This document shows, one piece after another, positions 2,922 to 48,390 of a stretch of 64,000 nucleotides of DNA. The position numbers and the translations under genes are program-made. Origin of the DNA: Sedimenticola hydrogenitrophicus (GTDB lineage Bacteria; Pseudomonadota; Gammaproteobacteria; Chromatiales; Chromatiaceae). Each line of letters begins with the position of its first letter. Position 1 is the first letter of the stretch. Under the pieces are notes generated by a model. It saw nothing but the letters and a program-made list of their open reading frames with translations. It searched no databases and had not been told where the DNA came from. The stretch lies in assembly GCF_029017505.1 (NCBI RefSeq), contig NZ_JAQGEI010000002.1, positions 62,001 to 126,000 on the forward strand, in the 5' to 3' direction.

Positions 2922-3677
2922 CTCTGACCGACTTCCTGCGGGCCGGGGAAGCTTCCCGGCGATCAGGTATCTTTCGAGTGGGAAGTGGTGACCGAGGCCC
3001 ATCGCCCTGTAAGTGACCATATGGGCATCGACCGAGCAGATGCCCTGCTCCACTTGGTGGACCAAGGGGTTGGCCAGCGCCTCGGGAGAGGAGAGTGCAA
3101 CATTGAGCCCCTGATCCGGGTCCCTCGCGGAGATGTACTCAAACGCCAGCACACCGTCCGCGCGCATGGCCATCCCCAGCGCCTGGGTTGTCGAGTAGTC
3201 TTCCGGATGCCTCAAAATTTCGCTATGCAGCGCGAACGGCTCCAACTGAAGCTGGATGCCACAATCAGTGCGGTAGTCGAAGCCAAACTGGGTGTGCTGC
3301 GTAGTCCAGACACGCCCAGGTGCCAGATCGACGGCGTCCTGAAACAGGAAGTGCCGATAGAAAGCAAATTCCTCCATCGCGGTCTGGATGGCAAGCGCGC
3401 CGTAGAGGTAGCCGGGCTCCCGGGTTGAGCCAAAACGGCTTCCCCACTCGAGCGGGGGATAACGGAAGGGTGACTGCAGCAGGTAGTGCAGGGCCCCGCT
3501 TCCGGGACGCTTTCGGGGCTTGGAGTCATCCAGCAGGCTCTCAAGCAGATCCTGGGCATCCAGCGATGAGACGATCTCCGTGGTGGCGGCCTGTTCTTGT
3601 GTTTCTACGATCCGATAGCCACGTCCGGCAATGGGCCGCACACACTTCCGGCCGCCATCCGACCAGATATCGCTCAA
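2913..3677 (-). CDS. RES-domain toxin of a RES/Xre toxin-antitoxin pair
   Basis: RES-domain toxins of this family degrade or modify NAD+ in the host cell; that is family knowledge, not visible here. The protein (254 aa from the chosen start) has the typical opening RIVETQEQAATTEIVSSLD, the LLDDSKP segment, LHYLLQSPFRYPPLEWGSRFG and EPGYLYGALAIQTAMEEFAFYR, which carry the conserved Arg and Glu of the fold. The frame is open up to 3788, but homologues begin close to the segment SDIWSDGG, and a TTG at 3677 overlaps the antitoxin stop codon (TTGA), so translational coupling from that TTG is the preferred start; a GTG at 3641 is an alternative. It is second in an antitoxin-first operon. The start codon is the uncertain point, the family is not. 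Confidence 0.85.
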   Translation of the reverse strand: MSDIWSDGGRKCVRPIAGRGYRIVETQEQAATTEIVSSLDAQDLLESLLDDSKPRKRPGSGALHYLLQSPFRYPPLEWGSRFGSTREPGYLYGALAIQTAMEEFAFYRHFLFQDAVDLAPGRVWTTQHTQFGFDYRTDCGIQLQLEPFALHSEILRHPEDYSTTQALGMAMRADGVLAFEYISARDPDQGLNVALSSPEALANPLVHQVEQGICSVDAHMVTYRAMGLGHHFPLERYLIAGKLPRPAGSRSELI

Positions 3678-7822: not shown

Positions 7823-8827
7823 ATGGACCTGCGTACCACCTATCTCGGCCTGACCCTGAAAAACCCACTGGTGCCGTCCGCCTCGCCGCTCTCCCGCAGC
7901 CTTGACACGGCGAAACAACTGGAGGACGCGGGGGCCGCCGCCCTGGTGATGTACTCGCTGTTCGAGGAGGAGCTGCAGCATGATCAGGAGGTGATGGACG
8001 ACTACCTGCACAACCAGGCCCTGGGCCATGCCGAAGCGACCAGCTTTCTACCGCTGCACGACAGCATGCGCTCCCGGCAAGCGTCTTATCTGGAGCAGTT
8101 ACAACGCCTGAAACAGGCGCTGGAGATCCCCGTCATCGCCAGTCTCAACGGCGTCACCCCGGGCGGCTGGGTGGAGCATGGCAAGGCGTTGCAGCAGGCT
8201 GGGGCCGACGCGTTGGAGCTGAACGTCTATTACATTGCCGGCGACATGACGGTGAGCGGCGCCGAGGTGGAGCGCCGCTATATCGACCTGCTCCATGAAC
8301 TGCGTCAGCACGTCAGCCTGCCCATTGCCATGAAGCTGTCGCCCCAGTTCAGCTCCATTGCCAACCTGGTCGGCCACCTGGAGCGGGTCGGGGCCGCCGG
8401 CGTCAGCCTGTTCAACCGCTTCTACCAGCCGGATATCGATATCGACAGCCTGCGGGTGATGCCGCAACTGCGCCTCTCCAGCCCGGCGGAATCCCTGCTG
8501 GCGATGCGCTGGATCGCCATGCTCCACGGCCGGGTGAAACTGAGCCTGGCCGCCACCGGCGGCATCCACGACCATACGGGCGCACTGAAGATGCTCCTTG
8601 CCGGGGCCGACGTGGTCCACCTGTGCAGCACCCTGCTGCTGCACGGACCGCAGCGATTGACACAGATACTGCGGGATATGGAGGCGTGGCTGGAAGAGAG
8701 CCCCTACGAATCCGTGGAGCAGCTCAAGGGCGTGCTCAGCCAACGCCATGCCGGCGACGCCTCGGCCTATGCCCGGGCCAATTACCTGCAGCTACTGAAT
8801 AGCTACCTGCCCGGCATGGATACCTGA
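7823..8827 (+). CDS. Dihydroorotate dehydrogenase-like FMN protein
   Basis: TIM-barrel flavoprotein of the class 1 dihydroorotate dehydrogenase/PreA superfamily (334 aa). It opens MDLRTTYLGLTLKNPLVPSA, and has VIASLNGVTPGGWVEHGKAL, DALELNVYYIAGD, the AMKLSPQF strand and a phosphate-binding LAATGGIHDHTGALKMLLAGADVVHLCS near the C-terminus. The frame extends upstream into nifJ, but the ATG directly after the nifJ stop with GAAGGAG before it is the real start. This gene often sits next to nifJ in bacteria. It lacks an obvious orotate-specific context (no other pyr genes), so its substrate may be another pyrimidine or an unrelated enone; a role tied to ferredoxin-level electrons is inference. Confidence 0.85.
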   Translation: MDLRTTYLGLTLKNPLVPSASPLSRSLDTAKQLEDAGAAALVMYSLFEEELQHDQEVMDDYLHNQALGHAEATSFLPLHDSMRSRQASYLEQLQRLKQALEIPVIASLNGVTPGGWVEHGKALQQAGADALELNVYYIAGDMTVSGAEVERRYIDLLHELRQHVSLPIAMKLSPQFSSIANLVGHLERVGAAGVSLFNRFYQPDIDIDSLRVMPQLRLSSPAESLLAMRWIAMLHGRVKLSLAATGGIHDHTGALKMLLAGADVVHLCSTLLLHGPQRLTQILRDMEAWLEESPYESVEQLKGVLSQRHAGDASAYARANYLQLLNSYLPGMDT

Positions 8828-36682: not shown

Positions 36683-38509
36683 TCAGGCCTTGCGCAGCAG
36701 GTTGACGATCTCCCCGGCCGGTAGCGGCCGGCTGAAGAAGAAGCCCTGCACGGTATCGCAACCGTGCTTTTTCAGGTACTCCAGCTGCTCCCGGGTCTCC
36801 ACCCCTTCCGCGACCACCTCCATACCCAGCACGTGCCCCATGTCGATGATGGTCTTCACCAGGCCGGTCTCGGCATCGCGCACCTGGATATCCTGGATGA
36901 AACTCCGGTCGATCTTCAACACGTCGATCGGAAACTGTTTCAGATAGCCCAGGGAGGAGTAGCCGGTGCCGAAGTCATCCATGCTCAGCTTGATATTCAT
37001 CGCCTTGATATCGCCCAGGGTGAGCAGGGTCTGCTCGCGGTTGAACAGCAACGAGGACTCGGTGATCTCGATCCCCAGCAGATCGGTATCGATTCCGGTC
37101 GTCTCCAGCAGCTCCACCAGATAGTCGGTGAATTCATGGTTCTGCAGATGCTTGCCGGAGAGGTTGACGGAGATCCGTACCGGCTCATAGCCCTGGCGCT
37201 GCCACGCCAGTGACTGCTCAATGGCGCGGCTGATCACCCACTCGCCGATGCGAATGATCTGACCGCTCTCCTCGGCAATGGGAATGAAAATATCTGGCGG
37301 CACGCCCCCCAGTTCCGGATGCCGCCAACGCAGCAACGCCTCCAAGCCGACCAGGCGCTCGCTGGCCAGGTCGATCTGTGGCTGGTAATAGAGTTCGAAC
37401 TCGCCCTTTTCCAGCGCCCGGCGCAGGCCGGTCTCCAGCAACAGCCGCTCCATGGAGACCTTGTTCAACTGCTCGGTGAAGAACTGGAAGTTGTTCTTGC
37501 CCAGATCCTTGGCGTGGTACATTGCCGCGTCCGCGTTCTTGATCAGCTGGTCGGCGTCCTCGCCATCCTGCGGATAGACCGCAATGCCCATGCTGGAGGA
37601 GATCACCAGCTCCTGATCGCCCAGCAGCAGCGGTTGGGCTATGGTCGAGGTGATGCGCGGCAGGATGCGGGTGATGTGAGACACCTGTTCCACGTCATCG
37701 AACAGGATGGTGAACTCGTCACCGCCCAGCCGGGCCACATGCTGCGCCTCCGTCAGGTCGCTGGAGCGCAGACACTCCAGCAGCCGTCCGGCAATCTCCT
37801 TCAGCAGCAGATCGCCGATCGGGTGCCCCATGGTGTCGTTGATCAACTTGAAGCCGTCCAGGTCGAGAACCAGCACCGCCACCTTCCGGTCATGGCGCCG
37901 GGCGTTGATGATGGCCTGATCGACCCGCTCGCCGAACAGCCGCTTGTTGGGCAGCCCGGTGAGGCTATCGTGGTAGGCCAGCCAGGCGATCTGCTCCTCC
38001 GACAGCTTGCGCTTGGTGATGTCGCGGGTGAGGGCCAGCACCCGGTCATTCTGCACCGGCACCAGCCTCGCCTCGTAGTAGAGATTTGTGTCACCGTCCG
38101 GAAAGCTGAACTCAAACTCCACCGGTTGCCGGCTGCGCAGGACCTCGATCAGGGCACTGTCGTACTGCTCGGCCACATCCTGGACGAACACCTCATACAG
38201 CCCACTGCAGCTCGCGCTGTGGCAGAGCATGAAGGGCGGATGGTTGTTGATGGTACGGTGCCTGACCCGCTTGTCGGCACTGAATTCATAGATGTCATCC
38301 GGGATCGAATCCAGGATCAGCTTCAGGCTCTTGTTGGCGCTGGTCAGTTCCCCCGAACTGAGATCCATGGCCCGCTCCAGCAGGGTGCGGTCCTGGTCAT
38401 GCTGCGCGTAGGCTATGTCGATCGCCTCCAGCAGTCCGCGTAACTCAGGCTTTTCCAGCCACTCCGGCGGGAGGTGTCGGCGCAGCTGTCTGGTCAACAG
38501 TTTGTGCAT
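36683..38509 (-). CDS. PAS-GGDEF-EAL cyclic-di-GMP enzyme
   Basis: A 608-aa soluble c-di-GMP enzyme. Order: N-terminal helical part, PAS sensor about 60-165 (LILDSIPDDIYEFSADKRVR), GGDEF domain with intact active site VARLGGDEFTILFDDVE, and EAL domain with LVGLEALLRWRHPELGG and the DFGTGYSSLGYLKQFPIDVL, KIDRSFIQDIQ and EVVAEGVETREQL motifs. Both catalytic motifs look complete, so either or both activities are possible. It starts in the stop codon of the FIST gene (TGATG), which suggests the FIST protein supplies its signal. Confidence 0.93.
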   Translation of the reverse strand: MHKLLTRQLRRHLPPEWLEKPELRGLLEAIDIAYAQHDQDRTLLERAMDLSSGELTSANKSLKLILDSIPDDIYEFSADKRVRHRTINNHPPFMLCHSASCSGLYEVFVQDVAEQYDSALIEVLRSRQPVEFEFSFPDGDTNLYYEARLVPVQNDRVLALTRDITKRKLSEEQIAWLAYHDSLTGLPNKRLFGERVDQAIINARRHDRKVAVLVLDLDGFKLINDTMGHPIGDLLLKEIAGRLLECLRSSDLTEAQHVARLGGDEFTILFDDVEQVSHITRILPRITSTIAQPLLLGDQELVISSSMGIAVYPQDGEDADQLIKNADAAMYHAKDLGKNNFQFFTEQLNKVSMERLLLETGLRRALEKGEFELYYQPQIDLASERLVGLEALLRWRHPELGGVPPDIFIPIAEESGQIIRIGEWVISRAIEQSLAWQRQGYEPVRISVNLSGKHLQNHEFTDYLVELLETTGIDTDLLGIEITESSLLFNREQTLLTLGDIKAMNIKLSMDDFGTGYSSLGYLKQFPIDVLKIDRSFIQDIQVRDAETGLVKTIIDMGHVLGMEVVAEGVETREQLEYLKKHGCDTVQGFFFSRPLPAGEIVNLLRKA

Positions 38510-39639
38510 CAGCGCTCCGACAGGGCGGTAATGGTCATGGTCTGGTTGTGCAGTTCACAGCGCGCATCCGGGGTGAAGGGGGAGATCTCGCCGTAGGAGT
38601 AAAACCCGGTGTACACGGCCTGGTCACCCAGCACCTCGTGCACCGCCTCCACCTCCTCCTCGACCCGCTGTTTCAGGATCAGTTTTCTGCCGACACAGCT
38701 GATCAGGATGGCCAGTTCCGGGGCACCCTGGCGCAAGCCGTGGCCGGCGGTCTCCGCCGCCCCGAGCGCGCCATCCACCAGGCGGTCGAAATTAGCCTTC
38801 ATCAGCCGCACATAACAGCCCTGCGGAATGTCCCCGGCAAAGGTCATGCTCTGTTCCTTCTCGTCCACCGCCAGTATGGAGCGCACGATCGGCTTCTCGT
38901 TCTCCGGCAGGCGCAGGCTGAGGGGGAACATCAGGCCGGTGGCGGGCAGCCCCACGGCGTGTTCGCCCAGGTAGGTCTTGTACAGATTCAGGGCCGACTG
39001 CCCATCCAGTTCGTAGAGCACATTGCCGCTGGCGCGGGTGATCAGCCGCTCCGGCCCGAAGCTGTCCCAGCCGCCCAGCGATCCGCAGCCCACCGAGATA
39101 TGTTCACCATACAGCCCGATGGCCGAAATCTGCCGCTCCCGGATCTCCTCGTCCCAGACCACCAGGGTCTGTTCGAAGCGGTCGCCATCACCCGACAGGC
39201 CACCGGTGACCGTGACCCCCGCCGGGAGGTGTTCGGTAACCCCCCGGACCAGTTCACTACCGTTGATATTCAGGCCATCGGAGAGCACGAACAGGTGTTT
39301 CAGGTCGTCCGCCGCCAGCTGGCGGGCCAGCTCCCGGCCCGCGGTGTGGCTCTCGGCGGCATGCTCCACCCGCACCCGAGCTCCCTTGACCCGGGTCTTC
39401 TCGAACTCTACCGCGGTCAGGCAGAGGGTGTCGTCATAGACGTGCAGCCCCATGATCTCGCCGGCGGTGGAGCAGCCGATGATCAGGGCGGACGGATAGG
39501 CGCGCCGTACTTCTCGCAGCAGATTAACGGCTAGCAGGCGCCTGGCCGAAAAGACCAACAACAGCTGACTTCTGTTGCGCTCTCCCAGCGGCCGCAGCCA
39601 GCCGTGCTCCGGTTGCCAGCGATTCTGTACGATATGCAT
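38509..39639 (-). CDS. FIST-domain sensor protein
   Basis: A 376-aa protein with FIST_N (GWLRPLGERNRSQLLLVFSA, LIIGCSTAGEIMG, HLFVLSDGLNINGSELVRGV, VTVTGGLSGDGDRFEQTLVV) and FIST_C domains (DGQSALNLYKTYLGEHAVGL, ILISCVGRKLILKQRVEEEV, VYTGFYSYGEISPF). FIST proteins are proposed small-molecule sensors, possibly for amino acids. Translationally coupled to the downstream PAS-GGDEF-EAL gene, a recurrent pairing. No signal peptide or membrane span. Confidence 0.93.
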   Translation of the reverse strand: MHIVQNRWQPEHGWLRPLGERNRSQLLLVFSARRLLAVNLLREVRRAYPSALIIGCSTAGEIMGLHVYDDTLCLTAVEFEKTRVKGARVRVEHAAESHTAGRELARQLAADDLKHLFVLSDGLNINGSELVRGVTEHLPAGVTVTGGLSGDGDRFEQTLVVWDEEIRERQISAIGLYGEHISVGCGSLGGWDSFGPERLITRASGNVLYELDGQSALNLYKTYLGEHAVGLPATGLMFPLSLRLPENEKPIVRSILAVDEKEQSMTFAGDIPQGCYVRLMKANFDRLVDGALGAAETAGHGLRQGAPELAILISCVGRKLILKQRVEEEVEAVHEVLGDQAVYTGFYSYGEISPFTPDARCELHNQTMTITALSER

Positions 39640-39811
39640 CAGCCCCCCTTTGCCAGATTTGATGGGCGTTCACCATGCTATAGCGGCAAATGTTCCCGGG
39701 CCTAAAGGGCCGGGGCGGGGAGCCGGCGCCATTTTCAGCTTCAATTCATGCGGCCGTGCCAGAATCCCTCTCAAGAATTAACCACCCAGTCGCCTGATGG
39801 ACGGATAACAG

Positions 39812-41032
39812 ATGACAACCGGCACCCTCGCATTAATCATCCTGGCTGCGCTCGGCCTGCAGGTCGGCCTATTCGCCCTGAACGCGCTGAATCGTCGGCG
39901 CGCCCGGTTTTGTGCGGCCACGGCCGTACCGACCGCCACCGACGCGACCGCCTGGAAAGGCTTTCGGGAGTTTGTGGTACAGCGCCGTGTCACCGAGGAT
40001 GCGCAGGGCACCATCTGCTCCTTCTATCTGCGCCCGGTGGACGGCCGGCCGCTCCCCCCATTCAAGCCGGGCCAGTTCCTGACCTTCCGGCTGCCCGTGG
40101 ACGACCCGGCCGGCAGCCGAAACGGATCCGTGATCCGCTGCTACTCCCTGTCCGACGCCCCCCATCCGGACTATTACCGGGTCACGATCAAACGGGTACC
40201 GGCACCGCCCGGACAGCCGGCGCTGCCATCGGGGGTCGCTTCCAACTTTTTCCATGACCGGGTGACGGAGGGCTCGCGTCTAGAGGTCCGCGCCCCCGCC
40301 GGCCATTTCCATCTGCAGGAGCAGGATCAGTCGCCGGTAGTACTGATCGGCGGCGGCATCGGCATCACGCCGATGCTGAGCATGCTCAACCGGCTGCTGG
40401 AGAGCGGCAGCCCGCGCGAGATCTGGCTCTTCTACGGCATACGCAACGGCCGCGAGGAGATCATGGGGGATCACCTCCGATCCCTGGCCGAACAGCACGC
40501 CAACTTCCACCTGTACTGCTGCTACAGCGCTCCGACCGACGGTGAAGCCGCGGGGCTCGATTTTCAACATCGCGGCCGGGTGGATGTGCCGTTGCTGCGT
40601 GCCACCCTGAAACCGGCGTACTACCAGTTCTACCTGTGCGGCCCCCCGGCCATGATGGAGAGCCTGGCGCCCGGCCTGGAAGAACTGGGTATTGGCGACA
40701 TCTTCTACGAATCCTTCGGGCCCGCCACGCTCGCCCGGCCTGGTGCGACGGAGAGGCAATCAGAGACGGCCGCCGCGGAGATCAGCGTCACCTTCGGCCG
40801 ATCCGGCAGGCAGATCGCCTGGGACCGGCAGGCCGGCTCCCTGCTGGAGTTCGCCGAGGCCCAGGGTATCGAGGTGGACGCGGGCTGTCGTGCCGGCAGT
40901 TGCGGCGGCTGCCAGACCCCCATTGAATCGGGTGACGTGGTGTACGACCAGCCGGCCGTCGCCGAGGTGGAGCCCGGCCACTGCCTGCTGTGTATCACCC
41001 GGCCGAAAAACGACCTGACCCTGGCCGCCTAG
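39812..41032 (+). CDS. NAD(P)H flavoprotein / 2Fe-2S reductase with N-terminal anchor
   Basis: A 406-aa electron-input protein. One N-terminal membrane span (LALIILAALGLQVGLFAL), then an FAD domain (GQFLTFRLPV, RCYSLSDAPHPDYYRVTIKR), NAD(P)-binding domain (VVLIGGGIGITPMLSMLNRL, YLCGPPAMMESLAPGLEELG) and a C-terminal plant-type 2Fe-2S domain with CRAGSCGGC and a distal CLLC cysteine. This is the layout of Hcr/NADH:ferredoxin-type reductases, turned toward the cytosol. It heads a seven-gene run of redox genes; the next gene starts 9 bp after it. Likely role: feed NAD(P)H electrons to the following b-type cytochrome. Confidence 0.87.
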   Translation: MTTGTLALIILAALGLQVGLFALNALNRRRARFCAATAVPTATDATAWKGFREFVVQRRVTEDAQGTICSFYLRPVDGRPLPPFKPGQFLTFRLPVDDPAGSRNGSVIRCYSLSDAPHPDYYRVTIKRVPAPPGQPALPSGVASNFFHDRVTEGSRLEVRAPAGHFHLQEQDQSPVVLIGGGIGITPMLSMLNRLLESGSPREIWLFYGIRNGREEIMGDHLRSLAEQHANFHLYCCYSAPTDGEAAGLDFQHRGRVDVPLLRATLKPAYYQFYLCGPPAMMESLAPGLEELGIGDIFYESFGPATLARPGATERQSETAAAEISVTFGRSGRQIAWDRQAGSLLEFAEAQGIEVDAGCRAGSCGGCQTPIESGDVVYDQPAVAEVEPGHCLLCITRPKNDLTLAA

Positions 41033-41041
41033 AGAATCGCC

Positions 41042-41620
41042 ATGCAACGCTCCCTGGTACGCAAAGAAGTGCTCCCCTTCCTGCTGATGTTCGGCTCACT
41101 GATCCTGGCCACCATCATCGCCGATGCCCTGCTGCACCTGTTCGGACTGGCCTGGATCGGTCGCTGGCTCGGCATACCCGGTACATTGCTGATCCTGTCA
41201 TCCTTCCTCTACTCGCTGCGCAAGCGAAAAAAGATCCATTTCGGCAAACCCAAGACGCTGCTCGTCCTGCACGAAACCCTGACCTGGGTGGGTGCCCTGT
41301 TTGTCCTGGTGCACGCCGGCATTCACGTGTATGCCATTCTGCCCTGGCTCGCCCTGATCGCCATGTTGATCAACATCATCAGCGGCATGACCGGCAAGTA
41401 CCTCCTGGATCGCTCGCGCAGCTTCCTGGCGCGGAAAAAAGAGCTGTATCTGCAGGAGGGGCTGACCGAGGCAGAGGTTGAGAAGCGGCTGTTCTGGGAC
41501 GCCACCACCTACGACCTGATGAAACAGTGGCGCACGGTCCACCTGCCGATCACCCTGGCCTTCGCCGTGCTGGCAAGTACGCACATCCTCGGCATCTTCC
41601 TTTTCTGGCAATGGCGATGA
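41042..41620 (+). CDS. Four-span membrane b-type cytochrome (predicted diheme)
   Basis: A 192-aa integral membrane protein. Spans fall near 10-30, 40-58, 75-112 (two) and 165-190. Two helices each carry histidines 14 residues apart, H77/H91 and H167/H181, with H95 beside one pair. This HX13H pattern on two helices is how bc1, ferric-reductase and NADPH-oxidase proteins hold two stacked hemes, so two b hemes across the membrane are predicted. No Pfam-type name is certain. It lies between the flavoprotein and the octaheme cytochrome, and its stop overlaps the start of the latter (ATGA). Confidence 0.72.
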   Translation: MQRSLVRKEVLPFLLMFGSLILATIIADALLHLFGLAWIGRWLGIPGTLLILSSFLYSLRKRKKIHFGKPKTLLVLHETLTWVGALFVLVHAGIHVYAILPWLALIAMLINIISGMTGKYLLDRSRSFLARKKELYLQEGLTEAEVEKRLFWDATTYDLMKQWRTVHLPITLAFAVLASTHILGIFLFWQWR

Positions 41621-42408
41621 ACAAAAAACTGATCACCCGCATCGTCGCGGCGAATCTGTTTGTCCTAGTCCTGCTGGCGATCTTCGCGCCGCAATGGATG
41701 ATCAGCCCGGGCAAACCGATCGCAGCCCACGGTGAGCTTACAAACGACTGCTTTGCCTGTCATGTCCCCTTCATTGGTAGCCGCCCACAGCGGTGCATCA
41801 CCTGCCACCAGGTCGCGGAGATCGGACTGAAGACCACCCGGGGGATCGCTATCGACAAGGAGCAGAAGAACGTCGCCTTCCATCAGGAGCTGGTCGAAGA
41901 TGATTGCATGGCTTGCCACAGCGAACACAAGGGGGTGCAGCCGTTCCGGCCCATCGGCCGATTCTCCCATGAACTGCTGCGGGCATCGGTGCAGGAGCGG
42001 TGCGACAGTTGCCACAGCAACCCCGGAGACGCCCTGCACCGGAAGATCAAGGGCGGTTGTGCTCAGTGCCACAGCAACGACGCCTGGCGGCCGGCCACCT
42101 TTGATCATCGAGAGTATTTCCGATTCGATCGACACCATGACACCGAGTGCGCCACCTGCCACGTCAACGACGACTATGCCAAATACACCTGCTACGGCTG
42201 TCACGAGCACTCCCGTTCGAAGATCCGCGAGGAGCATTTCGAGGAGGGTATCCGGGACTACGAGAACTGCACCGAGTGCCATCGCAGCGGCGACGAGGAC
42301 GAGGCCAAGCGGATCTGGCGATCCGGAGGCTACAGGAGCGGATTGCGCCAGCCGGAAAACGGCGGATGGCAACCCTGGCAGAACCGAAGCCGTGAGCATG
42401 ATGACTGA
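41617..42408 (+). CDS. Membrane-anchored octaheme cytochrome c
   Basis: A 263-aa periplasmic multiheme protein with an N-terminal uncleaved anchor (ITRIVAANLFVLVLLAIFAP) and eight CxxCH sites in order: CFACH, CITCH, CMACH, CDSCH, CAQCH, CATCH, CYGCH, CTECH. Extra His residues could serve as distal ligands. It resembles the cytochrome c3/c7-type modules rather than octaheme nitrite or tetrathionate reductases: there is no CxxCK site. The frame runs further upstream, but the ATG overlapping the previous stop (41617) is the natural start. Predicted to accept electrons from the b hemes. Confidence 0.87.
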   Translation: MNKKLITRIVAANLFVLVLLAIFAPQWMISPGKPIAAHGELTNDCFACHVPFIGSRPQRCITCHQVAEIGLKTTRGIAIDKEQKNVAFHQELVEDDCMACHSEHKGVQPFRPIGRFSHELLRASVQERCDSCHSNPGDALHRKIKGGCAQCHSNDAWRPATFDHREYFRFDRHHDTECATCHVNDDYAKYTCYGCHEHSRSKIREEHFEEGIRDYENCTECHRSGDEDEAKRIWRSGGYRSGLRQPENGGWQPWQNRSREHDD

Positions 42409-42433
42409 CCGACCCACAGACAGGAGCATTGCC

Positions 42434-42748
42434 ATGATTTTGAAACCTTACTCCCAGCTGCTGAAATCCATCCTCCTGGCGGGCAGCATCGCGCTGTCGC
42501 TGGCATCCATCCAACCGGTCGCCGCCGATGGCGGCGGGACCTACTCGGGTTATGACGCCAACCGGGACGGTTACCTGGACAGGGACGAGTTCGAACCGTT
42601 CGCGCAGGCCCGGCGCAAACGCTCGGCCAGTCCGGACATCTGGGCGTTCGAAAGCGTGGACAGCGACACGGACGGGCGTATATCCGAACAGGAGATGGTG
42701 AACGCGCTGATACGCGAGGTGGCGCAGAAACAGCGCCGAAACCGGTGA
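42434..42748 (+). CDS. Secreted two-EF-hand calcium-binding protein
   Basis: A 104-aa protein with a signal peptide (LKSILLAGSIALSLASI) and two EF loops: DANRDGYLDRDEF and DSDTDGRISEQEM, each with Asp/Asn-x-Asp-x-Asp-Gly and the closing Glu. The ATG at 42434 has AGGAG upstream; it lies 25 bp after the octaheme gene in the same operon. It may sense Ca2+ or hold the periplasmic cytochromes together; that is inference from position. Confidence 0.88.
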   Translation: MILKPYSQLLKSILLAGSIALSLASIQPVAADGGGTYSGYDANRDGYLDRDEFEPFAQARRKRSASPDIWAFESVDSDTDGRISEQEMVNALIREVAQKQRRNR

Positions 42749-42867
42749 TTTCCGCTCACTGACGGATCGCAGTACGGAAGATAACACCGCCGTTTTCAGC
42801 TCATGTTTTAAGTTTGGTTTCAGCTTCCGCTGTTAGGCTTCCCGCAACTCAATGATGGAGAGACCCG

Positions 42868-43449
42868 ATGAACACATCACTTCCCGACAACGAGATCAAG
42901 GTCTGGGATCTGCCGACCCGCGTTTTCCACTGGACACTCGCCGGCAGCTTCATGATCGCCTACCTCACCGAGGACGATTTCATCGCCCTGCACACCCTGG
43001 CCGGCTATACGATTATCGGCCTGATCCTGTTCCGGCTGGTGTGGGGAGTCGTCGGCCCGCGCCATGCCCGCTTCAGCGACTTCGCCCATCCACCCGGGAG
43101 CGTGCTGGCCTACCTGAAACAGGTGATCCGCTTCCGCGCGGAGCGCTACCTCGGCCATAATCCGGCCGGCGGCGCCATGGTGTTCGCCCTGCTGATCGCC
43201 CTGATCCTGACCATCGTCTCGGGCCTGGTCACCTATGGCGCCGAGCAAGCGGCCGGTCCGCTGGCCGGGGTGATGAACGACCTGCCAGCCTATATCGGCA
43301 AGGCCGCCGAGGAGGTCCACGAGTTCTTCGCCAACGTCACCCTGCTGCTGGTGCTGCTGCACCTGGCCGGGGTTCTTGTGGCGAGCCTGCAGCACGGCGA
43401 GAACCTGGTCCGCTCGATGATTAATGGGCGCAAGCAGGCGCCGCGCTGA
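42868..43449 (+). CDS. Cytochrome b561-family membrane protein
   Basis: Four-span b-type cytochrome (193 aa) of the bacterial cytochrome b561 group: opening IKVWDLPTRVFHWTLAGSFM, LHTLAGYTIIGLILFRLVWG, LLIALILTIVSGLVTYG and ANVTLLLVLLHLAGVLVASL provide the His ligands. It is the membrane partner usually found next to SHP and the diheme cytochrome in Rhodobacter and Shewanella. It lies 119 bp after the EF-hand gene and 20 bp before the SHP gene; a separate promoter is possible. Confidence 0.9.
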   Translation: MNTSLPDNEIKVWDLPTRVFHWTLAGSFMIAYLTEDDFIALHTLAGYTIIGLILFRLVWGVVGPRHARFSDFAHPPGSVLAYLKQVIRFRAERYLGHNPAGGAMVFALLIALILTIVSGLVTYGAEQAAGPLAGVMNDLPAYIGKAAEEVHEFFANVTLLLVLLHLAGVLVASLQHGENLVRSMINGRKQAPR

Positions 43450-43469
43450 TACACACAGGAGACACAACG

Positions 43470-43871
43470 ATGCGCTTTAAAACTTTTACCGGCCTGCTAC
43501 TGCTGACGGCTACCACCCAGCTCTTCGCGGCGGCGGAACAGTCACTCAACGACTACCGGAGCCTGGGAGCCGGGCCGTTCGATGCACAGGCCGGCCGAAG
43601 GCTCTGGCTCAGCAGTAACCGGCCGGATACCGGTGGCAACGAACGGAGCTGCAGCGATTGTCACGGACAGAACCTGGCACTCCCCGGCAAACATATCCGC
43701 ACCGGCAAGGTGATCGAGCCGATGAATCCGGCGGTTACTCCACAACGCCTGGCGGACAGTGAAAAGATCGAGAAGTGGTTCCTGCGTAACTGCAAGTGGA
43801 CCTTCGACAGGGAGTGCACGGCGCAGGAAAAGGGTGACCTGATCCTTTTTATTCAACAACCGGGCAAGTAG
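43470..43871 (+). CDS. shp: SHP-type (DUF1924) high-spin cytochrome c
   Basis: Periplasmic cytochrome c homologous to the sphaeroides heme protein, a monoheme protein whose iron is held by His and Asn and which opens to bind O2 or NO. The 133-aa precursor has a signal peptide (FTGLLLLTATTQLFAAA), one heme site CSDCH (61-65), the SHP-like HIRTGKVIEPMNPAVTPQRL, Asn107 in FLRNCKW at the position of the SHP Asn ligand, and Cys108/Cys116 as the conserved disulfide. Flanked by its usual partners, b561 and the diheme cytochrome. Confidence 0.9.
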   Translation: MRFKTFTGLLLLTATTQLFAAAEQSLNDYRSLGAGPFDAQAGRRLWLSSNRPDTGGNERSCSDCHGQNLALPGKHIRTGKVIEPMNPAVTPQRLADSEKIEKWFLRNCKWTFDRECTAQEKGDLILFIQQPGK

Positions 43872-43907
43872 GGATTGCACCGGGAAGACAACATGAGAGG
43901 TAACAAC

Positions 43908-44477
43908 ATGAAAAAAAAATATTGGCTGATCGCCGGCGTGCTGGCGGTGCCGCTTTTGACCACGGCCGGCGTGGCGTTGAGCGATGGTGATAACCGCCAT
44001 AAATCGCTGCTCTCCTGGTTTACCAACACCAACCCGGGGATCGACCCAAAGACGACCCAACTCTATACCGATGAGTGCGGCGGCTGCCATTTTCCCTATC
44101 AGCCCGGCCTGCTGCCCGCCAACTCCTGGGAACAGATCATGGGCCGCCTGGATGACCATTTCGGGGAGAATGCGGAGTTGACCGAGAGTAACCGCGATGC
44201 CATCCGTAACTTCCTGCTCAACAACGCCGCCGGCCGCGCCAACTATGGCCTGCCGAACAAGATCATGGCGGCCCAGGGCGACCGCTCGCTGCCGCTGCGC
44301 ATCACCGAAATGCGCTACTTCACCTATGAACACAGCGAGCTGCAACCGGCGATGGTCCGGGACAATCCCGAGGTCGGATCGTTCAGCAACTGCGACAGCT
44401 GTCACCAGAGCGCCAAACAAGGGCTGTATGATGAACATGATGTCAGGATTCCCGGCTTTGGCCGCTGGGAGGATTAA
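43908..44477 (+). CDS. dhc: Diheme cytochrome c (DHC), SHP partner
   Basis: A 189-aa periplasmic cytochrome with a signal peptide (KKKYWLIAGVLAVPLLTTAG) and two heme sites, CGGCH and CDSCH, in the DHC framework (LYTDECGGCHFPYQPGLLPA, SWEQIMGRLDDHFGENAEL, FSNCDSCHQSAKQGLYDEHD). DHC is the electron donor to SHP in the known systems. A TTG at 43875 is in frame, but the ATG at 43908 has AGAGG and gives a clean leader. Last gene of the redox run. Confidence 0.9.
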   Translation: MKKKYWLIAGVLAVPLLTTAGVALSDGDNRHKSLLSWFTNTNPGIDPKTTQLYTDECGGCHFPYQPGLLPANSWEQIMGRLDDHFGENAELTESNRDAIRNFLLNNAAGRANYGLPNKIMAAQGDRSLPLRITEMRYFTYEHSELQPAMVRDNPEVGSFSNCDSCHQSAKQGLYDEHDVRIPGFGRWED

Positions 44478-45121: not shown

Positions 45122-46444
45122 TCAACGGCCCTCCGGCAGCGTCTGCAGATAGGCGAGTATATCCACTAGAAGCTGATCATCAAGCACCTGCAGTGCCGGC
45201 ATCGGTTCATTAGGGTGCCCATTGCGGATTTTGTGCAAAGCCTCCCACGGACTCTCCTTTGCAAGACGTCCCAATGGGACAGTATTCATGATTCCACGCC
45301 CATCGCGACCATGACAAGTGGCACAGATCGTACCAAAGTAATCCGTGGCACGCGCCGCATCACCCTGGACGCGCCGGGTTTCGCGTTCAATCATCGTATC
45401 CATATCCAGCTGCCCCATGCTGATGAAACGGGCCAGGTCAACAAGATCTCCGTACTTCAGTACTGCCCCGTAACGATGAGTCGGGTTTCGCAGCAGTTCG
45501 ATAATCACTTCCGGCCTGGAGCCCGCATACACTTGTATGCCCGTTATCCCGGTGGCATGCGGGCCACTGCCATAACTGCCGTCCCGTCCACGGTAATCCC
45601 AGCCGTGGCACTCCTTGCAGCGCCAGGTTCTGGGGGCATCCTCGGCATAGCCGGCATCGGTGGGGTAGGCAGGGTGTGGGACGGGCGGCGGTAGCGCCTG
45701 CAACTCCTGCTGCCAGTTGTCGTAGAGGCGGCCGCCCCGAACAATGGATGCGGCCAGATTCTGGGCGGGGAGTTGCCGAAGATAGGCCAGCATGCCGGCA
45801 GCATTGGTGGTACCCAGTACCCGCAGTGGTGGCATATTGCCCCCGGGATGGCCATTGAGGATCATGTGCAACGCCTCGCGTGGCCGATCCCTCGCCACCT
45901 CCCCCAGTGGTGGCACCTCACGTACCCGCTTGCCGCTATGCCCATGGCAACCCGCGCAGATGGTGGCGAAGCGATCTTCATGGGAGGCCACACCCGGTGC
46001 TGTATCGGCCGTCCCGGATTGAATCAGTGCAGCCATATCCACCTGACCGGCACTGACGAAGTGGCCAAGGGCGAGCAGCTCCTCGGGACGCAAAATATCC
46101 CCATAAGCATGTCCGGCCGAGGTCAGTATAGTGACAACGACCTCGGGATCGGCACCTTGGTAGCGTTCGATTCCGGGCATCCCGTTGATACCCCGGTAGT
46201 CCCAGCCATGGCAAGAGGTGCAGCGCCAGGGTTCAGCAATATCACTGGCGGCATCAGGGCGTTTCGCCAGCAGCGGATGCGGACTCCGGGGCGGCTGCAG
46301 ATGCAGCTCCCGGTACCAGTTATCATAAAGTCTGCCGCCCCGGACTACCGCATTAGCGTCGGCCTGGGCGGTAGCGGTAGTCGTCACCCCAAAAAACAGG
46401 ATTCCGGTGATACTCACCAGCAGGACAATGAACCACCTGTTCAT
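45122..46444 (-). CDS. Tetraheme cytochrome c made of two diheme modules
   Basis: A 440-aa periplasmic protein with a signal peptide (WFIVLLVSITGILFFGVTTT) and two similar halves of about 200 residues. Each begins VRGGRLYDNW, has a CxxCHGWDYRG heme (CTSCH, CKECH) and ends with a second heme in CxxCHGxxGxx (CAGCH, CATCH) plus PMPALQVLDDQL-type or MPPLRVLGTTN. The same single module forms the 47151-47873 protein, so this gene arose by internal duplication. Third in the minus-strand operon after the diheme protein and NapC/NirT. Substrate unknown. Confidence 0.88.
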   Translation of the reverse strand: MNRWFIVLLVSITGILFFGVTTTATAQADANAVVRGGRLYDNWYRELHLQPPRSPHPLLAKRPDAASDIAEPWRCTSCHGWDYRGINGMPGIERYQGADPEVVVTILTSAGHAYGDILRPEELLALGHFVSAGQVDMAALIQSGTADTAPGVASHEDRFATICAGCHGHSGKRVREVPPLGEVARDRPREALHMILNGHPGGNMPPLRVLGTTNAAGMLAYLRQLPAQNLAASIVRGGRLYDNWQQELQALPPPVPHPAYPTDAGYAEDAPRTWRCKECHGWDYRGRDGSYGSGPHATGITGIQVYAGSRPEVIIELLRNPTHRYGAVLKYGDLVDLARFISMGQLDMDTMIERETRRVQGDAARATDYFGTICATCHGRDGRGIMNTVPLGRLAKESPWEALHKIRNGHPNEPMPALQVLDDQLLVDILAYLQTLPEGR

Positions 46445-46477
46445 ACCAATCTCCTTGATTCCGATAACGGTGCTTGA

Positions 46478-47068
46478 TCAATCATCACGCGGCGGTAATT
46501 GATGGGTAAGCCCACGATGGCAGTCGATACAGGTTTTGCCTTCCTGAATAGCCTCGGGATGGCGTTGCTGGGCCCGTGGCCGCTGATCCGTTATCTGCAT
46601 GGTGTCGAAGTCATGGCAGTTGCGACACTCACGAGAACCGGTTTCGCGCATACTCGCCCACACCCGCTCGGCGAGTTCGGCGCGATGCTCCTCGAATTTT
46701 TCCGGGGTATCAATGGTACCCACGAGCTTATGGTAGATCTCACCGCTCGCCTTTATCTTGCGCCACACCTTGGCGCCCCACGCTTTCGGCACATGGCAAT
46801 CCGAGCAGATGGCGCGCACACCGGAGGGATTTTTATAATGTGTTGATTGGATATATTCCTGGTAGACGGTCTGCTCCATTTCATGGCAAGAGATGCAGAA
46901 CTCCAGGGTATTGGTTTTTTCCATACCCCAGTTGAAACCACCCCACAAGAGGATGCCAAACACAGCCCCAAAAATAGCCAACCCTGCGATGGAGAAGCGC
47001 TTCGAGGGCTTCCAGAGCGCACGCCATATGCGCCCCAGGCCGGATCGCCCGCTTTCATTTGACGTCAT
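46478..47068 (-). CDS. NapC/NirT-family tetraheme quinol dehydrogenase
   Basis: A 196-aa inner-membrane cytochrome c that takes electrons from quinol to periplasmic redox partners. One N-terminal anchor (RFSIAGLAIFGAVFGILLWG) and four hemes: CISCH, CSDCH, CRNCH, CIDCH, with the NapC features FCISCHEMEQTVYQEY, THYKNPSGVRAICSDCHVP and GSRECRNCHDFDTM. It sits between the diheme and tetraheme soluble cytochromes, which are its probable electron acceptors. No nap, nir or tor catalytic subunit is in the window. Confidence 0.93.
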   Translation of the reverse strand: MTSNESGRSGLGRIWRALWKPSKRFSIAGLAIFGAVFGILLWGGFNWGMEKTNTLEFCISCHEMEQTVYQEYIQSTHYKNPSGVRAICSDCHVPKAWGAKVWRKIKASGEIYHKLVGTIDTPEKFEEHRAELAERVWASMRETGSRECRNCHDFDTMQITDQRPRAQQRHPEAIQEGKTCIDCHRGLTHQLPPRDD

Positions 47069-47150
47069 TCAAACTCTCCTTGGTCAAGGCAGAACAGGAC
47101 CCCGCCGCACGGCATAATATCCGCGCGGCGGACGTCGATCCCGGGATCGA

Positions 47151-47873
47151 TCAGCGGGGTAGCGTCTGCAGGTGAGCGACGATATCGGTCACAATCTGGT
47201 GGTCGAGGGCGCGCAACGCAGGCATCGGCTCCTTGGGCTGTCCATTGAGCACCTTCATCATCATCTCCACGCCATTGCCGGCTACAGTGCCGATAGGGTC
47301 GGCGTCGGCAACCTTCTTGCCATCAATACCGTGGCAACCGGCGCAGATGGTATCGAAGTAGACCTTGCCCTTGGCTGCGTCACCCTTGGATTTGAGCGAG
47401 GGATATTCAATATACTGAGTCATGTCGATTTGCCCATTGGCAACAAAGTTCGCTAGATCCGCGACATCGGCATCGGTCAGCATGGCAGGGGTATAACGAT
47501 GGGTATCATCACGAATAATGGCAGCGATAGCTGCCGGATCCTTCCCGGCAGCCCCATTCACTCCCTTGATGCCGGTCGCATGCTTCCCCTTGCTGTAGGC
47601 ACCGTCCTTGCCCTGCATGTCCCAGCCGTGGCACTCCTTGCAGCGCCAGGTGGCATCACCCTTGTAATTTTTCCCGGGATAGGCCGGATGAGTGTCGGCC
47701 GGTTTCTCGGCCCCATTTTCGTTCCACCACTTGTCATAAAGACGACCGCCGCGGGCGATGGACGCCTCGTCTGCCAGGGCAGTGGCCATGGTCCCGACCA
47801 GGAGTCCCCCGGCAGCGACGACAGAGATACAAAATTTCAGCATGGACGGTGAAAAAATCCTATGTTTGTTCAT
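47151..47873 (-). CDS. Diheme cytochrome c, single-module paralogue
   Basis: A 240-aa periplasmic cytochrome with a signal peptide (KFCISVVAAGGLLVGTMATA) and the module ARGGRLYDKWWNENGAEKPA, CKECHGWDMQGKDGAYSKGK and CAGCHGIDGKKVADADPIGT, ending EPMPALRALDHQIV. The frame is open to 47996, but the ATG at 47873 has AAGGAA and starts the leader. First gene of the three-cytochrome operon; AT-rich DNA upstream probably holds the promoter. Homologous to each half of the tetraheme protein. Confidence 0.9.
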   Translation of the reverse strand: MNKHRIFSPSMLKFCISVVAAGGLLVGTMATALADEASIARGGRLYDKWWNENGAEKPADTHPAYPGKNYKGDATWRCKECHGWDMQGKDGAYSKGKHATGIKGVNGAAGKDPAAIAAIIRDDTHRYTPAMLTDADVADLANFVANGQIDMTQYIEYPSLKSKGDAAKGKVYFDTICAGCHGIDGKKVADADPIGTVAGNGVEMMMKVLNGQPKEPMPALRALDHQIVTDIVAHLQTLPR

Positions 47874-48390
47874 GGCGAATTCCTTATTTAGGTGAATTTT
47901 TATTCTTAATCCAGAAGACAGAGAGATATAACTACTTTTTAGCAAAGTTAGTATGGGTGACAATTCTAAAAAAAACAAACGCCCTTCCCGCCCCACAATC
48001 GATAAAGCGGCATGAGCATGAGTCCCGCCAAAATCGAACCACAGGCCCTGAGACCGATTAACACACTGATAGTAAGCTTTATTTCTTAAGCATTTCTTAA
48101 GAAAGATGAGCCCGGTGGACCGGGGGCATTAGCAGGGCTATGGGCGGGTGGGTTAGGAGGCGCCTTGCATGGGGGTGGCCGGTTACATTGCACCGTGCGC
48201 GCCATAACCCACCCCACGAGACTGTAGCCATATTCGCGTTTATTCGCGTTTATTCGCGTTTATTCGCGTTTATTCGCGTTTATTCGCGTTTATTCGCGTT
48301 TATTCGCGTTTATTCGCGGCTTATATTCTTCATGAGCACGACTGAGTTAGATGGGTAATCGGGCAGAACAGGGCGGATACCCGGCACGGA
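47874..48390. other. 517-bp gap between cytochrome operon and RimK-like gene
   Basis: The first 130 bp (to about 48000) are AT-rich and must hold the cytochrome promoter. CTTAAG-containing repeats (TTTCTTAAG twice) occur at 48086-48110, and a 10-bp tandem array lies at 48231-48318. No gene is seen. Confidence 0.55.
48231..48318. repeat. 10-bp tandem repeat, eight perfect copies of TATTCGCGTT
   Basis: Eight exact copies of TATTCGCGTT run from 48231 to 48310 and a partial ninth (TATTCGCG) to 48318. The absence of any change between copies indicates recent expansion. Any frame through it (YSRLFAFIRV repeated) is a by-product of the repeat. Confidence 0.95.

Follow-up and report, generated by a model that had tools for sequence, protein, structure and literature searches.

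An SHP gene cluster of Sedimenticola hydrogenitrophicus with an adjoining candidate NAD(P)H:cytochrome c reductase module

Genes and features of the cluster

The window analyzed here, a 64,000-nucleotide stretch of contig NZ_JAQGEI010000002.1 of the sulfur-sediment bacterium Sedimenticola hydrogenitrophicus, carries on its + strand, at 39812-44477, a cluster of seven genes that includes the gene for the cytochrome SHP. All seven open reading frames (ORFs) are present and, by ORF calls and Pfam and NCBIfam profiles, are of the types first assigned to them. The seven genes form two modules. Module A (39812-42748, + strand) comprises genes for a reductase, a b-type membrane protein with a predicted five helices, an octaheme cytochrome c and an EF-hand protein, while module B (42868-44477, + strand) is the known b561-SHP-DHC set. 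Spacing is close within each module: genes 1 and 2 lie 9 bp apart, genes 2 and 3 overlap by ATGA, genes 3 and 4 are separated by 28 bp, genes 5 and 6 by 20 bp, and genes 6 and 7 by 21 bp, taking 43893 as the gene 7 start. Genes 4 and 5 are the farthest apart, and their 119-bp gap contains a conserved operator-like direct repeat, TTAAG-N6-TTCAG (42808..42823, + strand), that starts 60 bp before gene 5. A second such repeat, TTCAG-N6-TTCAT (39734..39749, + strand), starts 78 bp before gene 1. The original prediction had described seven tightly spaced genes on one strand, forming a single operon; gene content, strand and types stand, but the close spacing breaks at the 119-bp gap, and a single seven-gene operon is not established. 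Because there is a box before each module in addition to this gap, two co-regulated transcription units are expected in the window, and from the sequence these appear likelier than one operon. A scan for sigma-70 promoters and terminators gave no more matches than in shuffled sequence.

Module B has the features of published SHP systems. Gene 5 (42868..43449, + strand) encodes a cytochrome b561 (Ni_hydr_CYTB, PF01292, 1.8e-27). Gene 6 (43470..43871, + strand) encodes SHP (DUF1924, PF09086, 1.5e-34) with one CXXCH, and its product aligns with Rhodobacter sphaeroides SHP (1dw0, 1.3e-21) such that Trp103, Asn107, Cys108 and Cys116 correspond to W84, N88 (the ligand), C89 and C97. It therefore has equivalents of the Asn sixth ligand, Trp84, Cys89 and Cys97 given as SHP features in passages of PMC2909971. 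Gene 7 (43893..44477, + strand; the start is uncertain, at 43875, 43893 or 43908) encodes a diheme cytochrome c with the features of DHC (PF09626, 6.3e-35; two CXXCH; PDB chain 3u99, 5.7e-35). The adjacency of b561, SHP and DHC that defines the SHP operon is thus present in the window. SHP is a rare periplasmic heme protein that binds O2 or nitric oxide (NO). According to passages of the same paper, R. sphaeroides SHP is reported to be an NO dioxygenase, electrons are proposed to pass from quinol to b561, DHC and SHP, and a title cited there terms DHC low-redox-potential (PMC2909971).

Known SHP systems had been taken to consist of b561, SHP and DHC alone, which is too narrow. In the passages of Meyer et al. 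2010 (PMC2909971) that describe the SHP operon of Rhodobacter, Rhodospirillum, Shewanella and Allochromatium, these three genes are shared, and an SK1-type sensor kinase, a regulator and Orf1 in many species, and CzcD in some, are linked to them. The cluster in the window goes beyond that operon by four products (the reductase, another b protein, the octaheme cytochrome and the EF-hand protein), and its kinase system lies on another contig. No gene for Orf1, a response regulator or an SK1-type kinase, which occur in many SHP clusters and not in all, was found among the ORFs around the cluster. The words "reductase," "octaheme" and "NADH" do not occur in the accessible part of PMC2909971, and a survey of the open-access literature by titles and abstract openings found no paper describing modules A and B together, or module A.

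Gene 1 (39812..41032, + strand; 406 amino acids) encodes a membrane-anchored FAD/NAD(P) reductase with a C-terminal 2Fe-2S ferredoxin domain. Pfam matches were NAD_binding_1 (2.3e-18) and Fer2 (1.2e-9), with FAD_binding_6 (0.0006) slightly below the cut-off, and a single hydrophobic stretch is found at the N terminus (residues 5-23). The nearest PDB chain was flavohemoglobin 1cqx (3.6e-48), aligned over the reductase domain, and the top NCBIfam score, 229.5 bits over the reductase part, was to the flavohemoprotein model and below its cut-off of 432. Gene 1 does not encode a flavohemoglobin, as Pfam and NCBIfam profiles found FNR and Fer2 parts and no globin domain. Gene 4 (42437..42748, + strand) encodes an EF-hand protein (EF-hand_7 pair, 2.8e-12) with an N-terminal hydrophobic stretch, which is probably exported.

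Gene 2 (41042..41620, + strand; 192 amino acids) defines a membrane protein family, probably of cytochromes b, that no Pfam model matches. The protein had no match in Pfam, including the ferric reductase/NOX transmembrane family profile, or in NCBIfam; a profile search against the PDB returned nothing, and a structure search gave no significant match (the NOX5 fold matched with an E value of 0.43). Histidines 77, 91, 95, 167 and 181 are invariant in an alignment of 65 sequences. In an AlphaFold (AF2) model with a confidence score (pLDDT) of 83, His 77/91 and 167/181 lie on two long helices, the partners within each pair being 14 residues apart. From this model and the positive-inside rule, we infer that the protein spans the membrane with five helices and stacks two hemes, an inner one bound by 77/167 and an outer one by 91 or 95/181, making gene 2 a probable diheme cytochrome b. 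The spacing of 14 residues on two helices and the FAD/NAD(P) partner resemble those of the NOX/ferric reductases, a likeness confirmed as kinship by neither profile nor fold search; unlike in those proteins, the reductase is here a separate 2Fe-2S protein, and gene 2 has no Pfam match. Distant relatives of gene 2 (31-35% identity; L035, L036, L037 and L038) adjoin arrays of octaheme-like matches, possibly another type of conduit.

Gene 3 (41617..42408, + strand) encodes an N-terminally anchored octaheme cytochrome c with eight CXXCH motifs. Among 64 relatives, 53 have eight such motifs and 11 have ten. Nine histidines outside the CXXCH motifs are invariant in all 57 aligned sequences, enough for eight bis-His hemes. 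Considering this coverage, a role of the octaheme protein as a catalytic reductase was set aside, and we read gene 3 as a membrane-anchored wire with no free catalytic heme. Its structure model is weak (pLDDT 70), the N-terminal helix being the best part, and a structure search with it gave no significant match; a profile search against the PDB matched three other multiheme chains. As a multiheme c3-like wire, it resembles the MtrA/DmsE decahemes but differs in its eight CXXCH and N-terminal anchor, and it scores 22.3 bits against TIGR03508, for which the cut-off is 192.2; yet, as noted, 11 of the 64 relatives do have ten. The C termini of the octaheme proteins are acidic (Asp or Glu is the last residue in 54 of 57, with DDD in 22 and HDD in 10), and such tails occur near EF-hand genes in several loci. 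It is possible that the gene 3 tail binds metal.

Spread of module A and its linkage to SHP

A scan of genome contigs with gene 2 yielded 64 loci, many of them cut by contig ends. Genes 1, 2 and 3 occur together in 55 of these (tblastn) and are therefore a module of their own across the Gamma-, Beta- and Alphaproteobacteria, as judged from record titles; gene 3 was undetected in two loci (L050, near a contig end, and L100). SHP is present in six of the 64 loci (L039, L052, L059, L067, L073 and L088), and its arrangement relative to module A varies. The order module A-EF-hand-module B is found in the window and in L039, that is, among the loci examined, in Sedimenticola hydrogenitrophicus only. 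SHP and DHC immediately precede module A in L059, SHP-DHC-b561 precede it in L067 and L073, and L052 and L088 have module B on the other strand. In L042, EF-hand, b561 and DHC genes follow module A, with no SHP at the locus. The DHC gene of L052 (7605-8159) has an in-frame TAA and is either a pseudogene or affected by a sequence error.

We also compared 210 genomes of the same GTDB family, in 46 of which gene 2 was strongly matched (a weak 47th, G450, was dropped). SHP was found in 131 of the 210, two of these with an E value above 1e-4. It was present in 44 of the 46 genomes with module A vs 87 of the 164 without it (Fisher p 1e-8, kinship ignored). Within 10 kb of module A on the same contig, SHP was found in 10 of the 46 (G000, G001, G017, G402, G407, G477, G489, G481, G482 and G483), under six genus labels and in reversed order in most, and it is likewise within 10 kb in three betaproteobacterial loci. 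As a yardstick, chance proximity corresponds to about 20 kb in 4.5 Mb. In four loci (L132 and L135-L137), the genes run b561-SHP-DHC-gene 1-gene 2-gene 3 on one strand, and L134 has the same b561-SHP-DHC-module A order with two DHC genes; in L131, SHP-DHC precede module A and b561 is 5 kb off, and L133 has a b561 fragment. In L132, the longest gene 1 start abuts the DHC stop. A divergent kinase-response regulator-PepSY set precedes L131, L132 and L135-L137, and PepSY alone precedes L133; in the L134 cluster, no PepSY/kinase set was seen ahead of the genes. EF-hand genes lie 3' of gene 3 in L131, L132 and L134, and CzcD genes lie 3' of the cluster in L131, L132 and L135-L137. Nine betaproteobacterial loci (L068, L069, L073, L077, L078, L086, L088, L092 and L101, the last by Pfam) have cation P-type ATPase genes near module A, in pieces in L073.

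The first four genes thus do co-occur with the last three elsewhere, in a recurrent linkage of module A and SHP in several orders; a lack of any such co-occurrence, which together with separate unregulated transcripts in RNA-seq had been named as grounds for rejecting the proposal, was not what we found. These comparative data contradict the idea that two unrelated operons are adjacent by chance: the 119-bp gap with its own operator-like box would fit that idea, but the pairing recurs in six genus labels of the family and three betaproteobacterial loci, and we consider it very improbable. Another possibility is that the modules share regulation and location alone, with SHP driven by quinol via b561 and DHC and module A serving an unrelated carrier. 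SHP without module A is common, as the 87 of 164 family genomes attest, and the quinol route in passages of PMC2909971 requires just b561 and DHC. Set against this are the recurrent joint clusters and the close packing of DHC and gene 1 in L132, and we regard this explanation as improbable, though less so than chance adjacency.

A class-wide sample of 369 genomes gave eight strong gene 2 matches and a weak ninth (G066). SHP was found in 58 genomes (57 over the cut-off) and together with gene 2 in five of the eight. With the window genome removed, SHP was present in 4 of 7 genomes with module A vs 53 of 361 without it (p 0.013, kinship ignored), and in none of those four was it on the contig of gene 2.

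Operator-like repeats and a PepSY-type two-component system

Both repeats in the window are related to the BqsR operator, given as TTAAG(N)6TTAAG in a passage of PMC4682146, and neither equals that consensus. The 16-mer at 42808 is also found in L039 and L042. To the exclusion of duplicates (L021-L025, L028, L030, L131 and L144-L146) and of L139, which has no upstream sequence, the pattern TTMAG-N6-TTMAG was counted upstream of genes across the loci; some redundancy is left in these counts (L026 and L052 come from one contig), and P values ignore kinship. In the sense orientation upstream of gene 1, 10 of 62 sequences had an exact match and 22 of 62 a match with at most one mismatch (shuffles, 0.04 and 0.76), compared with 2 and 6 of 62 in the antisense orientation. 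Matches were also found upstream of b561 (4/19) and PepSY (4/18), with none before CzcD (0/13) or EF-hand genes (0/11). The control regions upstream of gene 2 gave 0 exact matches and 1/83, and those upstream of gene 3 gave 0/82. Upstream of gene 1, pentamers of whatever sequence recur most often at a period of 11 (27/62; the next is period 9, with 14). This period test is weaker before b561 (11/19 at 11, 9 at 12 and 8 at 14) and before PepSY (7/18 vs 5), and coding controls peak at other periods (upstream of gene 2, 30/83 at 9 and at 15).

The genome of the window encodes a candidate regulator on another contig (C13), where a PepSY gene and a kinase gene are found together with a response regulator gene (67% identity to its L052 counterpart). 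The 16-mer before this PepSY gene is identical to the one before gene 1, and there is a further box before an EF-hand gene, whose product has four loops as counted by eye. A scan of the genome with a box pattern, drawn after three boxes had been seen (39734, 42808 and C13), returned six matches and a control 0; the other three matches (C6, C16 and C23) have no clear relation to the SHP/module A system. In the C13 kinase and related kinases, the SK1 motifs named in a passage of PMC2909971 are present in variant form. PepSY-response regulator-kinase modules, including PA2658/BqsS, are described in part of PMC12714742, and the arrangement here resembles the DbfQRS/BqsRS PepSY systems in combining such genes with a pentamer-N6-pentamer operator-like repeat, here a predicted site. 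Taken together, these sequence features suggest that modules A and B are probably switched on by a PepSY/response regulator/SK1-like system encoded elsewhere in the genome. BqsS senses Fe2+ according to a passage of PMC12666569. Direct Fe2+ sensing by the kinase of this genome was considered and is questionable: the BqsS ExxE motif is not clearly kept by eye, being ExxxE in this kinase and lacking its first Glu in L052.

A second type of box, resembling TTGAT-N4-ATCAA, is FNR/DNR-like. Of the gene 1 heads, 10 of 19 betaproteobacterial gene 1 upstream regions, a group assigned from record titles, had it with at most one mismatch, two of them exactly (shuffle, 0.04), vs 2 of 43 outside this group (shuffle, 0.24), where 3 of 56 gene 2 upstream regions had it as well. 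This box suggests that gene 1 in the Betaproteobacteria is under FNR/DNR-type control by O2 or NO. In L131, read as the reverse complement (Thiocystis-type), similar promoter-like stretches at about 2860-3070 and 8500-8690 precede b561 and the displaced SHP gene; each consists of a GTCAG-containing repeat followed by a CCCGTWATCTGC-like sequence.

A candidate electron path and its chief rival

We give about an even chance to the reading that two co-regulated modules together make up an extended SHP system, with module A feeding the c hemes of module B. Genes 1-3, with the EF-hand gene 4, would constitute a transmembrane NAD(P)H:periplasmic cytochrome c reductase. The product of gene 1, a reductase in the flavohemoglobin-like FNR class with its FAD and 2Fe-2S on the cytosolic side, would reduce the bis-His diheme b of gene 2, which would hand electrons outward to the anchored octaheme wire of gene 3, for a full path of NAD(P)H -> FAD -> 2Fe-2S -> inner b -> outer b -> octaheme -> DHC -> SHP. 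The b561 protein would be a second, quinol-linked entry point. Module A could thereby supply DHC and then SHP with a low-potential input independent of quinol, keeping SHP ferrous and letting it turn over O2 or NO. As originally proposed, the topology suits passage from NAD(P)H via FAD/2Fe-2S and b hemes to periplasmic c hemes, given the gene types and predicted helices. The first electron steps follow from family knowledge and this predicted topology, transfer from module A to DHC and SHP is suggested by linkage and co-occurrence, and on the best reading of the sequence data, NAD(P)H electrons would be delivered to SHP. Regulator binding, the substrate, the heme count of gene 2 and the direction of electron flow are likewise inferred.

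More specifically, the cluster might be a counterpart to flavohemoglobin that is split and spans the membrane, with the Hmp-like reductase driving SHP by way of a new family of b-type membrane proteins and the octaheme wire. SHP would then act in the periplasm as an NO dioxygenase or reduce O2, powered by NAD(P)H and under a PepSY sensor, which we consider unlikely in this full form. Similar to the NO dioxygenase flavohemoglobin (Hmp), the system has a reductase, gene 1, that is nearest to the Hmp reductase domain, and an O2- or NO-binding heme is the proposed end point. In contrast to Hmp, the system lacks a globin and has a c-type heme in the periplasm, and electrons would need to cross the membrane via genes 2 and 3.

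The main competing explanation makes module A a periplasmic reductase in its own right, acting for example on ferric iron or on some other metal or oxidant, that shares a cation-stress regulon with SHP and does not feed it. In G018, module A lies beside PepSY-response regulator-kinase genes in a genome without SHP or DHC, genes for CzcD-type cation efflux and for P-type ATPases are found repeatedly nearby, and the box resembles the BqsR operator of an Fe2+-responsive system (passages of PMC4682146 and PMC12666569). In the accessible part of PMC11267869, the SHP cluster of Allochromatium vinosum is strongly induced on pyrite (Table 1; log2 fold change of 7.10 for SHP) along with FieF (3.51), the regulator (4.15) and the kinase (2.18). 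However, SHP occurs in 44 of the 46 family genomes with module A, which is repeatedly beside b561-SHP-DHC in varied orders; the octaheme has no sign of an open catalytic heme, and the ExxE motif is not clearly kept in the kinases here. We view this alternative as a real possibility that falls short of being likely.

Several observations weigh against module A feeding SHP under shared control. Gene 1 was undetected in 8 of the 64 loci (L056, L061, L079, L094, L097, L098, at a contig edge, L099 and L100), and in 36 of the 46 family genomes with module A, SHP is not found within 10 kb of it on its contig, contig ends hiding some. Three of the eight class-sample genomes with module A have no SHP, two of the three being incomplete (73% and 87%). 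G502 has module A and no SHP, and G018 has no match for SHP or DHC. In G003 (S. selenatireducens, L042) and G545 (L148), b561 and DHC are beside module A and SHP is on other contigs. With regard to the boxes, 40 of 62 gene 1 upstream regions have none at up to one mismatch, and none of 15 SHP upstream regions has an exact match (3 of 15 with one mismatch). The conserved reductase partner and the box shared with the PepSY system make the electron source, the signal and the physiological role directly testable.

Upstream of gene 1, a divergent pair on the - strand (36683-39639) encodes a FIST-domain protein and a PAS-GGDEF-EAL protein. Just downstream of the cluster, also on the - strand (45122-47876), are three more cytochrome c genes, one of which encodes a NapC/NirT tetraheme protein; a relative of this gene is also found 3' of DHC in L042.

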